Assembly (NCBI GenBank): GCA_016867715.1
Contig: VGIW01000026.1
Span: 1 to 36,752 of the forward strand
Direction: 5' to 3'
Length of the DNA stretch: 36,752 nucleotides
DNA from: Candidatus Eisenbacteria bacterium
Lineage (GTDB): Bacteria > Orphanbacterota > Orphanbacteria > Orphanbacterales > Orphanbacteraceae
A program made the translations under genes and the position numbers. The notes below the pieces were generated by a model that saw only the letters and a list, made by a program, of their open reading frames with translations, was not told the DNA's origin and made no database searches. This document shows, piece by piece, positions 239 through 6,197 of this stretch. The first letter of the stretch is position 1; every line of letters starts with the position of its first letter.

Positions 239-1273
239 CTAGCGGACCAGAATCATCTTCCTCCCGAACGAGGCCTTCTCCGCATCGAGACGATAGAAAT
301 AGACGCCGCTCCCCGCCTCGCGCCCCAAACGATCTCTTCCATCCCAAACCGCCTCGTGCGCCCCCGCCTCCGCGTTCCCCGAAAGAAGCTCGCGGACGAG
401 ATCGCCCGCGAGGCCGTACACCGCGAGCCGAACCGGCGAACCCCGATCAAGATGGAAACGGATCACGGTCGCCGGGTTGAACGGGTTCGGGGCGTTCGGC
501 TCGAGGACGACGCGGAGCGGCGCTCCTTCGGCGACGTCCACGACCGGCGAGACCGGCGCATACGCCGCCTGAAAGATCTTCTTCGTGCTTTGCTTCTGCA
601 CGAAGATCATCGTGTGAAGATCTTCCTGCCCGAGCGGCATCTCGTACTTCCACGTGTATTGCAGGGAATCCCCCATCGTCAGCGTGATCCCCTGCCCGCC
701 TCCCCCGGGGACCATGTCGCGGAAGATCCGGCTGTACGGAGTCCCGTAGATGCCGTTCGTGTCCTCAACGACCGCGAGGAAAAGAAGGAAGCCCCCGGCC
801 GTGTCCACGGGGACGACATCGAAGGAAACATTGACCGAATCGGCGCTCCGCGTTTGCGAGGTGACCCGGATCCGCATTTTGCTCGGGACCGAGGTGCAGC
901 TATCGAGCGTGCTCCGAAGATAACTATAGAAGCCGTTGTAGGTCGCGAACTGATAAGGATCCTTGAGCCTCCTTCCGTCGAAGCGGAAGGTGGGGAGATA
1001 GTTCACGGCGTAGTAGCTGCGGCGCGTGTTGATCTCGGAAGAGTTGTACAAATGATAGAGATCGGCCGGATCGGGCCAATGCACGTGATAACGTACCGGA
1101 GCGACCTGCCCCGCGAACTCATCAAAGATCTTGTCGACCGAATCCTTGATGGCGTTGCATTGCGCTCAAGCCACGTTCGTGAACTCTTCGACCGCAACAA
1201 CCCGCGGGACCGCCCATGCAGGAGGCGCGACGAGCACGAGCAGCGCCGCGGCCATCCATGCGTGCATCCGCAT
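239..1273 (-). CDS. Exported thioredoxin-fold (Omp28-like) selenoprotein with FlgD-like T9SS sorting domain
   Basis: Read from ATG 1273 (GAGGAGG about 10 bases upstream) the frame gives 344 residues if the in-frame UGA at 1168-1166 is decoded as selenocysteine. A signal peptide covers residues 1-22 (ends AWA). The motif EEFTNVA-U-AQC follows: U36 and C39 form a UxxC redox motif where Omp28-like and thioredoxin-fold proteins have CxxC. A thioredoxin-type cis-proline motif, YLPTFRFDG (Pro94), and a beta-rich middle follow. Residues from about 256 carry NAPNPFNPAT and a FlgD/Ig-like module ending YFYRL...KMILVR, the outer-surface sorting domain. The frame and its protein-like composition are continuous on both sides of the UGA, and a SECIS-like stem-loop begins 15 bases after it. 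UGA is an ordinary stop elsewhere in the window. An automatic call would start at the internal GTG 1084 and lose the active site. A nonsense mutation or assembly error (TGC to TGA) is the alternative. The redox substrate is unknown. Confidence 0.85.
1121..1150 (-). promoter_or_regulatory. Candidate bacterial SECIS element
   Basis: On the minus strand, 15 bases after the UGA, 1150-1141 (ATCAAGGATT) pairs without bulges to 1130-1121 (GATCTTTGAT). This gives ten pairs, two of them G-U, closing a 10-base loop, CGGTCGACAA. The loop begins 25 bases after the UGA and has G at its second and third positions. Known bacterial SECIS elements lie inside the coding sequence just after the UGA, with an apical loop about 16-37 bases away and a G among the first two loop bases, so this hairpin fits. 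Binding by SelB is inferred. Confidence 0.7.
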
Positions 1274-1328
1274 GTCGCATGCCCCTCCTCTGCTCAAATG
1301 ACTTGGACGGGAGGATCCAATCGGCTGC

Positions 1329-1496: not shown

Positions 1497-1862
1497 ATGA
1501 AAGGGTATCCCATGAGATGGAATGCGTTCCTTGCCGGTTTGGTCCTGGCAGCCGTGGAGCCGCCCGCGGAGGGCCGGGGGGCGGTCGCGCTTCAGTCCTC
1601 GGCGGACGGGACGGTGCGGAACTGGCGCCCGGAGGAGGGGAACCTCGTCGTCGGCGGCCACGAACGAACTTGGTGGACCGCGAGCGGAGAGGCCTGGGAG
1701 CTCACGCTGCAGGGGACGTGGAACCGCGCCCCGACGATGGACCTCCCGGTCCCCATCGCCTCCGTGCGGCTTCTCAGCGAGAACGTTCTCTTCACCGTCG
1801 ACGACGATGTCTGGCACCTCGCCGAGGAGGGATGGATCCGGGCCGACCGCTTTCCACGGTAG
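1497..1862 (+). CDS. Small secreted protein of unknown function
   Basis: 121 residues from ATG 1497, or 116 from the second ATG at 1512, which gives the neater signal peptide (MRWNAFLAGLVLA...). The mature part is rich in tryptophan and short beta-like stretches (ERTWWTASGEAWEL, VLFTVDDDVWHLAEEGW). This resembles one or two blades of a beta-propeller or a small beta-sandwich, but I do not recognise a family. It is divergent from the selenoprotein gene and lies 285 bases upstream of the polysaccharide operon. No lipobox is evident. The frame has codon use like its neighbours, and AAGGAAA lies just upstream of the first ATG, so it is probably real. Confidence 0.5.
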   Translation: MKGYPMRWNAFLAGLVLAAVEPPAEGRGAVALQSSADGTVRNWRPEEGNLVVGGHERTWWTASGEAWELTLQGTWNRAPTMDLPVPIASVRLLSENVLFTVDDDVWHLAEEGWIRADRFPR

Positions 1863-1935: not shown

Positions 1936-2147
1936 AGATGACAGCCGCGGGCATCCCGGGTCAACTATTTCCACAAACCGGCCGAGAAGTAGAGGGACGA
2001 AGAGCGCCGAGGGCCCTGCCGATTCGGCCCGATCCACGGGCGGGCCCGATCGACCGGCGCGCACCCTTGACGAACAGGGCGACGCGGGCGGGTTCTCTCG
2101 GCGGAATCGGAAGGCGGGAAACGTGCCGCCCGGCGGCGAGGAGAGGC

Positions 2148-2990
2148 ATGAGCGTGCCGATCGAACGATCCACGGAATCGGGAGGGCCGGGGGCGGCGCA
2201 TCGGGGAGTGATCGCCGGGCGGGCGAGGGAGCTCTGGCGCTTCCGCTTCATGCTGAGGAGCCTCATCCTTCGCGATCTCAAGGTGAAGTACAAGCGATCG
2301 ACCCTCGGTTTTCTGTGGACCTTTCTGAACCCGCTCCTCACCGTCGGGATCCTGATCGCGGTCTTCCGGATCGTCATCCGGATCCCGCTCGAGCACTACT
2401 GGGCGTTTCTTCTCTCCGGGTATTTCGCGTGGAACGCCGTGCAGCACATGCTTCTCTCCTCGTCGTACATTCTGCAGACCCACTCGGGGCTCCTCCGGAG
2501 CACGGCCTTTCCGAAAGAGGTCCTCCTCTTCGGAGCGGCGATCTCCCGGCTGATCGAGCTTGCGATCGAGCTCACGCTGATCCTCGCGGTGCTCGGCCTG
2601 GTTCACCATCAGGGGGCGCCGATCGGCTTCGCGTTCCTTCCCCTTCTCATGCTCCTTCTCGCAATCACGACCGCGGGCTTCATGTTCCCGATCGCGACCG
2701 CCTCGGTCCTCTTCACCGACGTTCAGCACACGCTCCCGATCCTCACGACCTCGCTCTTCTACCTGACGCCGATCTTCTATCCCGCCGACATGGTCCCGGA
2801 GTCCTTTCGCGGGCTCTACTTCGCGAACCCGTTCGCGCGCCTCATCACGCTCTTCCATCAAGCGCTCTACGAGGGGCGCGTTCCGGACGGCGGGCTTCTT
2901 CTCGGCACCGCGGCCATCGCGCTCGGTCTTTTCGCGGCCGGGTACGCGATCTTCAACCGGTACAAGGACGTCTGCAATGAGCTCGTCTAG
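2148..2990 (+). CDS. wzm: ABC-2 type polysaccharide export permease (Wzm/TagG family)
   Basis: Integral membrane subunit of an ABC exporter for a completed polysaccharide (O-antigen, teichoic-acid or capsule type) across the inner membrane. The 280-residue protein has the family's usual length. It has an amphipathic N-terminal stretch (RFMLRSLILRDLKVKYKRS) with the typical 'RDLKxKYK' signature before the first membrane span, then about six hydrophobic segments, the usual 'YLTPIFYP' loop and 'NPFARLI' near residue 230. I chose ATG 2148 because GAGGAGAGG sits just upstream and the conserved N-terminus follows; the open frame extends further up but reads as non-coding. The 3' end overlaps the ATPase gene by 14 bases, a standard coupled Wzm-Wzt pair. 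Substrate unknown. Confidence 0.9.
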   Translation: MSVPIERSTESGGPGAAHRGVIAGRARELWRFRFMLRSLILRDLKVKYKRSTLGFLWTFLNPLLTVGILIAVFRIVIRIPLEHYWAFLLSGYFAWNAVQHMLLSSSYILQTHSGLLRSTAFPKEVLLFGAAISRLIELAIELTLILAVLGLVHHQGAPIGFAFLPLLMLLLAITTAGFMFPIATASVLFTDVQHTLPILTTSLFYLTPIFYPADMVPESFRGLYFANPFARLITLFHQALYEGRVPDGGLLLGTAAIALGLFAAGYAIFNRYKDVCNELV

Positions 2991-3756
2991 CGCGCGCCCC
3001 GTCCGCATCGAGTGCCGCGGCGTCTGCAAGCGCTTCTACTATTACAGCCACAAGACCACCACGCTTCGGGAGTGGTTCATCCGCGCCGTCATGCGCCGTC
3101 CCCTGCACGTACGGAGCCACGAGTTCATCCTTCGAGACTTCAATCTTCGCGTGGAAAGCGGCGAGGTCGTCGCGTTGATCGGCCGGAACGGCTCGGGGAA
3201 GAGCACGGCGCTCCGGCTCATCGCGGGGATCTACGCGCCGACCGCGGGGACGATCCGCGTGAACGGGCGCCTCGCGTCGGTGATCGAGCTCGGGGTCGGC
3301 TTCCACCCCGATCTCACGGGCGCGGAGAACGTCGAGCTCGCCGCCGGAATGATGGGGCTCGGCCCGCGCGCCCTCCGGCAACGATACGAAGAGATCATCG
3401 ATTTCGCGGAGATCGGCGCCTTCATCGAGATGCCGATGAAGTACTACTCCACTGGGATGAGCGCGCGCCTCGCCTTCGCGGTCTCGATGTGCGCCGATCC
3501 GGACGTCGTGCTGATCGACGAGGTGCTCGCCGTCGGGGACGAGGCGTTCCGCGGCAAGTGCATCGAACGGCTCGCCTCGTTCGTCGAGCGGGGCGGGACG
3601 ATCCTCCTCGTGAGCCACGAGATGCCGACCGTCGCGAACCTCTGTCACCGCGCCGTTTGGATGGAGAACGGCCGCATCCGAAAGGCCGGCCCGGCCGACG
3701 AGGTCGTCGCGGCCTACCAAACGGAAAGCGGCTCCCGATCTGAACTTGAGGAATGA
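2977..3756 (+). CDS. wzt: ABC transporter ATP-binding subunit for polysaccharide export (Wzt/TagH family)
   Basis: Energises export of a glycan through the upstream permease. The 259 residues contain Walker A GRNGSGKST (69-77), signature YSTGMSARL (157-165), Walker B VVLIDEVLAVGD with D181/E182, and H-loop His214. The stretch SVIELGVGFHPDLTG (101-115) and the phrase DEVLAVGDEAF are typical of the Wzt/TagH branch. The protein stops soon after the nucleotide-binding domain, so it lacks the C-terminal carbohydrate-binding domain found in O9a-type Wzt. This suggests export that does not depend on recognising a chain-terminal modification, or a separate recognition protein. It overlaps the permease gene by 14 bases, and nine bases separate it from the first glycosyltransferase. 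Confidence 0.93.
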   Translation: MSSSSARPVRIECRGVCKRFYYYSHKTTTLREWFIRAVMRRPLHVRSHEFILRDFNLRVESGEVVALIGRNGSGKSTALRLIAGIYAPTAGTIRVNGRLASVIELGVGFHPDLTGAENVELAAGMMGLGPRALRQRYEEIIDFAEIGAFIEMPMKYYSTGMSARLAFAVSMCADPDVVLIDEVLAVGDEAFRGKCIERLASFVERGGTILLVSHEMPTVANLCHRAVWMENGRIRKAGPADEVVAAYQTESGSRSELEE

Positions 3757-3765
3757 ACGATTGCG

Positions 3766-4941
3766 ATGAGTAGCTCTGCTCTTGATTTCGATCTCATGTC
3801 GCCTCTCCCGGCGATCGATCTCTCCGAGAAACACGCGCGCGCCTTCGTCGTGGTCCGCTACCTGGGAAGACCGGTCGGCGCGGCTTGGCTGCCGGCGGCG
3901 GACATCCGCGACGGAGGAGAATCGCTGCGAGAGACGCTCGCGGAGGCCGGCGGGAGAGCGCTTCGGCTCGCGCGCCTCGAAGACCGGATCGGATGGAGGC
4001 CGGTTTCCCCGCTCGACCGCCCCGCGTCCCCCGCGACCGTCGGCGTCTGCACGCGCGACCGGCCGGAGGATCTCCGACGCTGTCTGGAGGCTCTCCGCCG
4101 TATGCCGGACGATGGACAGGAAGTTCTCGTCGTCGACAGCGCCTCGTCTTCCGACGAGGTGGAACGAGTCGCGAAAAGCGTTCCGGGAGTTCGATATCTC
4201 CGCGAGGAGCGGCCCGGTCTCGACCGGGCGCGGAACCGTGTCCTTCGCGAGGCGCGCCGTCCGATCGTCGCGTTCACGGACGACGACGCGGCCCCCGAGC
4301 CTCTCTGGCTTCGCGCGCTCGCCCGCAACTTCGAGGACCGGCTCGTTCTCGCCGCCACAGGGCTCGTTCTTCCTCTCGATCTTGCGACGGACGCGCAGGA
4401 GTGGCGGGAGCGGTTGAGCTCCTTCGCGCGAGGCTTCGAACGGAAGATCTTTGAGGCCGCGCGCATGAGCCCCGCCGCCGCGGGGCACGTGGGCGCGGGG
4501 GTCAGCATGGCTCTTCGAAAAGACGCCGCCGATCGCGTGGGACCTTTCGACGAAGCGCTCGACGCAGGAACGCGCACCCGCTCCGGAGGCGACACGGAGA
4601 TGTTCGCGAGGATCCTCGCGGCCGGCTACCGCATCGTCTACGACCCCGAGGCGGTCTCGAGGCATCGACACGCGCCCGGATGGGACGAGGCCCGCGCGAC
4701 GTTCTTCGGGTACGGGGTCGGCGCGTACGCCGCATGGACCCGCCTTCTTCTCTTCGAACACGAGACGACCGTCCTCGGCCACGCCGCCGCCTGGTTCTTC
4801 AAACATCAACTTCCGGCTCTCGTCCGGTCGCTCCTTCGAGTTCCCGGCAGCGCTCCGGCAGATCTCCTCTGGGCGGAGCTCCGCGGCTGCGCGGCGGGGC
4901 CCTTCGCCTATTTCCGAGCGCGCGCGGAGAACGGACGATGA
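3766..4941 (+). CDS. Family 2 glycosyltransferase with N-terminal GRPVG accessory module
   Basis: Transfers a sugar from a nucleotide-sugar donor during assembly of the operon's polysaccharide, in the cytoplasm or at the membrane face. In this 391-residue protein the GT2 fold runs from about 90 (TVGVCTRDRPEDLRRCL) with the acidic donor/metal motif FTDDD (170-174), a GAGVSMALRK acceptor loop and a GGDTEMFARI motif supplying the likely catalytic acid. Residues about 24-75 form a separate small module, VVRYLGRPVGAAWLP..., which recurs in the next two proteins. The C-terminal part (FFGYGVGAYAAW, LLFEHETTVLGHAAAWFFKHQ) is amphipathic and could associate with the membrane. The shine-dalgarno is weak (GAGGAA about 14 bases upstream), consistent with coupling to the ATPase gene. 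Acceptor and sugar are unknown. Confidence 0.85.
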   Translation: MSSSALDFDLMSPLPAIDLSEKHARAFVVVRYLGRPVGAAWLPAADIRDGGESLRETLAEAGGRALRLARLEDRIGWRPVSPLDRPASPATVGVCTRDRPEDLRRCLEALRRMPDDGQEVLVVDSASSSDEVERVAKSVPGVRYLREERPGLDRARNRVLREARRPIVAFTDDDAAPEPLWLRALARNFEDRLVLAATGLVLPLDLATDAQEWRERLSSFARGFERKIFEAARMSPAAAGHVGAGVSMALRKDAADRVGPFDEALDAGTRTRSGGDTEMFARILAAGYRIVYDPEAVSRHRHAPGWDEARATFFGYGVGAYAAWTRLLLFEHETTVLGHAAAWFFKHQLPALVRSLLRVPGSAPADLLWAELRGCAAGPFAYFRARAENGR

Positions 4942-6197
4942 TCGCCCCATGCACCCGCCCGGAGTTCCTTGAAGTCAGCGTGATCGTTCCGACGCGGAAT
5001 CGAGCTCGATTTCTTCTTCGCCTTCTGGACGCGCTCCGCGCGCAGACCTTTCCGGCGGACCGCTTCGAGGTCCTCCCGGTCGTGAACGCGACCGAGGACG
5101 ACACGATGGAACAGATCCTGCGCTTCGACACCCCGTTCGCGCTTCGACCGATCGAAACGGACGCGCCGGGAGCCGCCTCCGCTCGCAACCGCGGGGCGTC
5201 CGAGGCGCAAGCGGATCTCCTCCTCTTTCTCGACGACGACGTGATCCCGTCCCCCGGTCTCATCGAAGCGCACGCGAGCGCGCACGATACGGCCGAACGG
5301 TTCGTCGGCATCGGACCCTACTACCCGGTTCATCTACGAACCGTTGATTTCTTCCGAATCGCCACTCGAAACTGGTGGGAGGATCTCTTCATGGAGATGG
5401 GGAGGCCCGACCATCGTTTCACGTATCGAGATGTCCTCTCCGGCAATCTATCGATGCGGGCCGATCTCTTCCGTGCGCTCGGAGGGTTCGCGCGCGATTT
5501 CGCCGCGTGCGACGGCGAGGACTGGGAGCTGGGGGTCCGGGTTGTTCGGCGCGGAGTCCCTGTCCGATTCCTCCCGGAGGCGCGGGCGCACCACCTCGAG
5601 CACGAGACGATGACGCTCGAACGGTCCTTCGTGCGCGCCCGACGGGAAGGCCGCGGAGACGCGCGCATCTCTCGCCGCTTTCCCGAGCTTGAGCCTGCTC
5701 TCGCGCCCCCGTGGGGAAAGCCGTGGGATCTCTCCCGAAGGCGCGCGCCGGTTCTCCTCGCGCGCTGCGCCCCGCGGACGTGCGAGGCTCCCGCGCGGGC
5801 GCTTGCGCGTCTCCTCCCCCTTCTCGAAGGCATGCGCATGCGCCGGAGCTGGAAGTGCGTCTATCACTTCATCCGAGGATACTGGCGTTGGAGAGGGTAC
5901 TTTGAAGAGATGCGGGCAATCCGCGCCGAGCGAGATTCCGGTACTCCGTCCGAGGAGACGATCGTGCTCGAGGAGACGACACTTCTGCTCGACGAAGGGA
6001 TCGAAGAGGCGCTCCGGAGGGTGGACCGAGAAAGACCGTCGGCCGTCCGGATCATTCATGGCGGCCGCGCGATCGGGACGATCTCTGCGGTGCCGGGGGC
6101 GGAACCGCTTCGGGGGGCTCATCTTCGCCGAATTCTCGGCGGGGCGCTCGCGGACACCCTGGCTGCGAACGGGGAGGACGGCGATTGGTCTCGGTGA
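4938..6197 (+). CDS. Family 2 glycosyltransferase with C-terminal GRAIG accessory module
   Basis: 419 residues from ATG 4938, which overlaps the previous stop as ATGA. The GT2 domain starts at residue 14 (VIVPTRNRARFLLRLLDAL) and has the donor motif LFLDDDV near 98, the acceptor loop LSGNLSMRADLF and the catalytic GEDWELGVRV. A basic, tryptophan-rich middle (HFIRGYWRWRGYFEEM) may touch the membrane. The last ~52 residues carry the same small module as its neighbours (VRIIHGGRAIGTI...), but here at the C-terminus, whereas the upstream protein has it at the N-terminus. The gene ends by overlapping the next gene by 13 bases. Sugar and linkage cannot be predicted. Confidence 0.85.
   Translation: MIAPCTRPEFLEVSVIVPTRNRARFLLRLLDALRAQTFPADRFEVLPVVNATEDDTMEQILRFDTPFALRPIETDAPGAASARNRGASEAQADLLLFLDDDVIPSPGLIEAHASAHDTAERFVGIGPYYPVHLRTVDFFRIATRNWWEDLFMEMGRPDHRFTYRDVLSGNLSMRADLFRALGGFARDFAACDGEDWELGVRVVRRGVPVRFLPEARAHHLEHETMTLERSFVRARREGRGDARISRRFPELEPALAPPWGKPWDLSRRRAPVLLARCAPRTCEAPARALARLLPLLEGMRMRRSWKCVYHFIRGYWRWRGYFEEMRAIRAERDSGTPSEETIVLEETTLLLDEGIEEALRRVDRERPSAVRIIHGGRAIGTISAVPGAEPLRGAHLRRILGGALADTLAANGEDGDWSR

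Follow-up and report, generated by a model that had tools for sequence, protein, structure and literature searches.

The window, by which we mean the whole 36,752-nucleotide stretch of DNA analysed, carries a gene for a predicted exported selenoprotein in which an Omp28-like, thioredoxin-fold domain with a UGA codon at the first position of its redox motif is joined to a C-terminal domain resembling the T9SS type A sorting tails. The gene does not strictly represent a new family, being a distant variant that carries a T9SS-type tail and is missed by the curated family model NF045500; what looks new is the pairing of an Omp28-like selenoprotein with a T9SS sorting domain. We have good confidence in the proposal as a whole, in which an exported selenoprotein would acquire selenocysteine (Sec) under the direction of a hairpin, be delivered to the surface by the T9SS and act as an oxidoreductase. 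The features concerned, all on the minus strand, are as follows:

239..1273 (-), Omp28-like selenoprotein gene; read-through translation of 344 aa with UGA taken as Sec
1284..1289 (-), Shine-Dalgarno-like AGGAGG, 10 nt 5' of ATG 1273; a similar site is found in the relative L032
1211..1273 (-), signal peptide-like N-terminus MRMHAWMAAALLVLVAPPAWA, from reading of the sequence; cleavage probably after A21
548..1210 (-), thioredoxin-fold/Omp28-like domain including UxxC and the cis-proline P94, from a profile of 43 homologues
1166..1168 (-), putative Sec codon UGA, residue 36, first of UxxC, from the codons of homologues; the second is Cys39 (TGC)
1120..1151 (-), candidate SECIS hairpin; stem of 11 bp, starting at its base 15 nt 3' of the UGA
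242..502 (-), FlgD_ig / T9SS type A-like sorting domain, about residues 258-344, from PF13860 and TIGR04183
157..181 (-), strong intrinsic terminator-like hairpin 3' of the gene; 11-bp stem, then CTTCGTTGTT

Results

The gene and its fold

The contig belongs to a genome of 3.51 Mb with a completeness on record of 100%. Translation from ATG 1273 to the terminator TAG at 241-239 gives 344 residues interrupted by a sole in-frame TGA, codon 36 (window 1168-1166), after which the frame continues with AQC, as the first-pass annotation had read it. In the same-genus orthologue both the ATG and a similar spacing of the AGGAGG are retained, while an out-of-frame ATG present at 1280 in the window is missing. 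Rfam detected no known RNAs around the gene.

Searched against the PDB, the profile of the 43 homologues matched thioredoxins, HBP35 of P. gingivalis (5y1a) and Omp28 (2r2c), and its UxxC column was aligned on the thioredoxin CxxC; the motif EEFTNVA-U-AQC places U36-A-Q-C39 at this site. E29, position 36 (Sec or Cys), C39, P94 and G100 are invariant among the 43, P94 being the proline of YLPTFRFDG. This proline, the signal peptide and the FlgD domain had all been listed by the first-pass annotation, and all are present. An AlphaFold model computed from three sequences was too poor for use (mean pLDDT 43); its secondary structure gives no more than a hint that a helix begins at residue 37.

The window protein stands at some distance from every curated family. 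The nearest, NF045500 ('Omp28-related selenoprotein'), gives 37.2 bits (E 2e-9) with a cut-off of 200, a score that was reached in none of the 386 genomes searched. The Pfam Omp28 family PF11551 gives 21.5 bits (2e-4), below its gathering threshold of 34.9, and matches 37 of the 43 homologues at E <= 0.01; the NCBIfam Omp28 model NF033782 (22.9 bits against a cut-off of 150) misses the window protein.

The C-terminal tail and the T9SS

The tail exceeds the gathering cut-off of PF13860 (FlgD_ig; 29.3 bits, 8.6e-7, against 27) and is matched by several T9SS models. With TIGR04183 it scores 19.7 bits, under the cut-off of 23, and this margin leaves room for another reading, namely that the protein is a true selenoprotein that is periplasmic or anchored in the outer membrane, with the FlgD_ig tail as a structural Ig-like domain and not as the address of a T9SS cargo. 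FlgD_ig is a general fold that also occurs outside the T9SS, and such a tail is lacking in C78-type Cys homologues. However, the same model gives 32.2 and 28.7 bits, above cut-off, for a paralogue in the same genome (C63, 45% identity over its full length) and for the orthologue of this paralogue, and the genome encodes both PorU (555 bits) and SprA (539 bits), each above its cut-off. Furthermore, a search of the genome with the window protein returned 129 matches, nearly all of them on the FlgD-like tail and mostly in long open frames, which is the pattern expected of a shared sorting tag. We thus regard the periplasmic or anchored alternative as unlikely. Export of the window protein is very likely, and its routing by the T9SS probable. 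The earlier assignment to T9SS sorting holds for the genome, whose PorU and SprA pass their cut-offs; it is weaker for the window tail, which stays below the TIGR04183 cut-off.

In other lineages too, Sec homologues (L050, L077, L082, L090 and L099) have tails that exceed the TIGR04183 cut-off. Each of the five genomes tested for SprA has a match above cut-off, and the title of at least one of them reads Gemmatimonadetes. According to a review of the T9SS, neither the system nor its tails occur outside Bacteroidota (PMC10202324). We also observed that the 129 matches, together with PorU and SprA, give the source genome the aspect of one with a large T9SS-like secretome; a plasmid search with the window protein gave one match, to the tail only.

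A conserved UGA at the redox site

The codon at site 36 was read one by one in 54 homologous genes, the window gene included: it is TGA in 18 and TGC or TGT in 36, and the motif's second Cys is retained in every one. The first-pass annotation had placed Sec at the N-terminal position of the CxxC and had proposed a search for homologues with Cys at position 36, and these counts bear out the one and supply the other. The closest relative, L032, whose contig bears the title Gemmatimonadetes bacterium DeMMO4_6, shares 83% protein identity and likewise reads TGA at this codon; L042, from genome G001, gives the same reading. Paralogue C63 has TGA at site 36 too, as does its counterpart in G001. Past the TGA, the same-genus orthologues show dN/dS values of 0.22 (redox domain) and 0.26 (tail), and the region behind the apparent stop is therefore translated. 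On these grounds, Sec insertion at residue 36 is, as far as sequence comparison can tell, close to certain.

Two other explanations of the TGA were considered, and both are highly improbable. The first is that UGA is read as some other residue through a change of code (Trp or Gly, for example), or that the downstream part is made from an internal start. An open reading frame starting at GTG 1084 and ending at 239 does exist, but such a start would drop the conserved signal peptide and the redox motif, and in homologues site 36 is Cys, neither Trp nor Gly. Moreover, the C63 gene and its orthologue both terminate with TGA, so UGA is not reassigned in this lineage, in agreement with the unaltered code that had been supposed from the window; with this, the reading was rejected. 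The second is that the TGA comes from a mistake in assembly or sequencing, or that the gene is a decaying pseudogene with a nonsense mutation, so that the product would end at residue 35. A lone in-frame stop in one genome would look just like this, but we rejected the explanation because the TGA recurs in a separate same-genus assembly and in the paralogue, and because the frame behind it is intact and under purifying selection. The TGA is real, a point on which the first-pass annotation had kept a reservation about the assembly. Sec at residue 36 thus stays as our reading of the codon.

Sec and Cys forms are interspersed: a quick tree of the 43 domains requires seven changes or more, and well-supported branches force two of these, so that Sec and Cys have replaced each other on more than one occasion. 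As separate observations, (i) the source genome has a third Omp28-like gene (G000:C78:9280-9936, L031) with Cys at the site, a lipoprotein-like N-terminus and no FlgD tail, so that Sec and Cys forms stand together in one genome; (ii) a single distant genome, G064, holds three Sec-containing Omp28-like genes (L060, L064 and L069), two of which, judged by eye, end in dockerin-like repeats in place of the FlgD tail; and (iii) an Omp28-like match in another genome (G216:C22:149450-150127) has two in-frame TGA codons and is possibly a double selenoprotein.

The Sec decoding machinery

The source genome encodes SelA (544 bits), SelB (387 bits), SelD (358 bits) and a tRNA-Sec (73 bits), all above cut-offs, so that the machinery that the first-pass annotation had named as a check was found. 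The anticodon of the tRNA-Sec is UCA according to ARAGORN, and the SelD gene has its own UGA at the catalytic Cys/Sec position (AG-U-AAK). Across genomes, selA is present in 17 of the 19 with a TGA form versus 12 of the 24 that are Cys-only (Fisher p 0.009), where the TGA site lacks a codon-by-codon reading in 5 of the 19 and Cys-only means among the matches listed; the two TGA-form genomes without selA are drafts with completeness of 91% and 82%. In genome G109, which has a TGA-form Omp28-like gene, the selA match (G109:C83:7374-8537) has two TGA and one TAG inside, and this selA may be broken or misassembled.

A candidate SECIS hairpin downstream of the UGA

The segment 15-46 nt past the UGA is more stable than its synonymous-codon shuffles in the window gene (z -2.2) and in four close Sec homologues (-2.0 to -2.6), whereas the Cys homologues have no hairpin and a mean z of +0.1 (Sec versus Cys p 0.012, from 12 Sec and 17 Cys genes that are non-independent). 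The nine-pair core of the hairpin is complete in four of the five Sec genes; the remaining one, L056, keeps eight of the nine pairs, with one compensatory A-U to G-C double change. A second group of Sec genes (L057, L058 and L065) shows a hairpin of its own, GGNUCGG-UGGAU-CCGRNCC, which lies 16 nt from the UGA and in which A-U, U-A and C-G occur as three different pairs at one position. The covariation, seen in both hairpin groups with three to five sequences each, is suggestive and, against shuffles, not significant.

The published model for bacterial SECIS elements calls for a G in the first two loop positions, a spacing of 16-37 nt and a loop of 3-9 nt (PMC13188914). The hairpin of L057, L058 and L065 conforms to it, and that of the window fits loosely: left unconstrained, it folds with a 10-nt loop, over the 3-9 nt limit, and a model-compliant alternative fold has -8.2 kcal/mol. 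A strict bacterial SECIS scan was positive in 12 of the 18 Sec members versus 12 of the 36 Cys members, a weak separation. The distant Sec members L050, L064 and L069 gave no hairpin signal. With dinucleotide shuffles of 64 nt around and after the UGA, z was -1.0 and the signal was confined to the synonymous-codon shuffles.

Discussion

The best reading of these results, by analogy, is that the window protein is a surface-delivered selenol-disulfide oxidoreductase whose closest functional analogue would be HBP35. In the route that we propose, SelB with GTP and Sec-tRNA-Sec would recognise the hairpin 3' of the UGA and insert Sec at residue 36, and the N-terminal signal peptide would take the protein through the Sec translocon. 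By homology, the thioredoxin-fold domain should present U36-A-Q-C39 at the start of the first active-site helix, opposite cis-Pro94. The C-terminal FlgD/Ig-like domain would then send the chain through SprA, the translocon, and PorU would probably cleave the tail and attach the protein to the surface; SprA and PorU are encoded in the genome, and it is their use by this protein that we infer. At the surface its most likely activity would be that of a selenol/thiol-disulfide oxidoreductase in which Sec36 makes the first attack and Cys39 resolves, with disulfide exchange and peroxide reduction both possible as its chemistry.

The window protein shares features with several known proteins, and differs from each of them: (i) GOS_C was reported in 2008 by Zhang and Gladyshev as a family of 74 Sec sequences that has a Trx-like fold (PMC2398784), and a 2026 review enters NF045500 as GOS_C, with a UxxC motif (PMC13188914). 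It has in common with the window protein the Trx-like fold, a UxxC with Sec first and the existence of Cys homologues, and the alignment covers residues 24-239 of the window protein; however, the score is 37 bits against 200, and for GOS_C we found neither a T9SS tail nor an export route described. (ii) HBP35 of Porphyromonas gingivalis (5y1a) is likewise exported, with a thioredoxin-type CxxC and a type A T9SS C-terminal domain (PMC10202324), but its own active site has Cys, not Sec, and its match to the window family is a distant profile match. (iii) Omp28 (PF11551; 2r2c) is similar in the second half of the domain, whereas the window protein lies under the Pfam gathering threshold and NF033782 is a lipoprotein family. 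(iv) The Sec-containing DsbA/DsbG-like and thiol:disulfide interchange proteins (PMC13188914) are also selenoproteins of the thiol-oxidoreductase type with UxxC, but belong to other families, and for them a T9SS tail was not found described.

Since NF045500/GOS_C, with its UxxC and Trx-like fold, was already described, the kind is known and the window gene is a distant relative; the claim of a new selenoprotein made in the first-pass annotation does not stand as worded. In the literature examined, a link between selenoproteins and the T9SS was not found, the two being mentioned together only in an unrelated animal-feeding study; Haft and Tolstoy 2025 may hold an earlier description.

On balance, we lean towards the existence of a widespread and undescribed class of T9SS-delivered, surface Omp28/HBP35-like UxxC selenoproteins with type A-like tails, present in several distant lineages, in which Sec and Cys would have been exchanged repeatedly and the SECIS hairpins would differ from lineage to lineage. 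Sec is costly and easily oxidised, and its probable display outside the outer membrane therefore suggests surface redox chemistry, of a kind that appears not to have been assigned previously to T9SS bacteria. Gene callers for which UGA is only a stop will truncate these genes, so that the class is probably under-annotated, and since no member that we found passes the NCBIfam model, a broader model is argued for. The hairpins described here also extend the set of candidate SECIS elements, among them one that deviates from the loop rule in the literature.

Two minor observations concern the surroundings and the 5' part of the gene. Adjoining it on the opposite strand, at 1938-6197 (+), are genes for an ABC-2 type permease, a polysaccharide-export-type ABC ATPase and two glycosyltransferase-like proteins, named from translations only, and a small secreted-looking ORF lies between them and the selenoprotein gene at 1497-1862 (+). 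Codons 1-35, up to the UGA (window 1169-1273, minus strand, compared with L032 3401-3505), show 99% DNA identity with one synonymous change, in contrast to about 83% in the remainder of the gene and about 60% in the 5' flank; the C63 pair L021/L055 likewise has zero synonymous-codon change in its first 35 codons, and the Cys paralogue pair L031/L062 differs in this respect.
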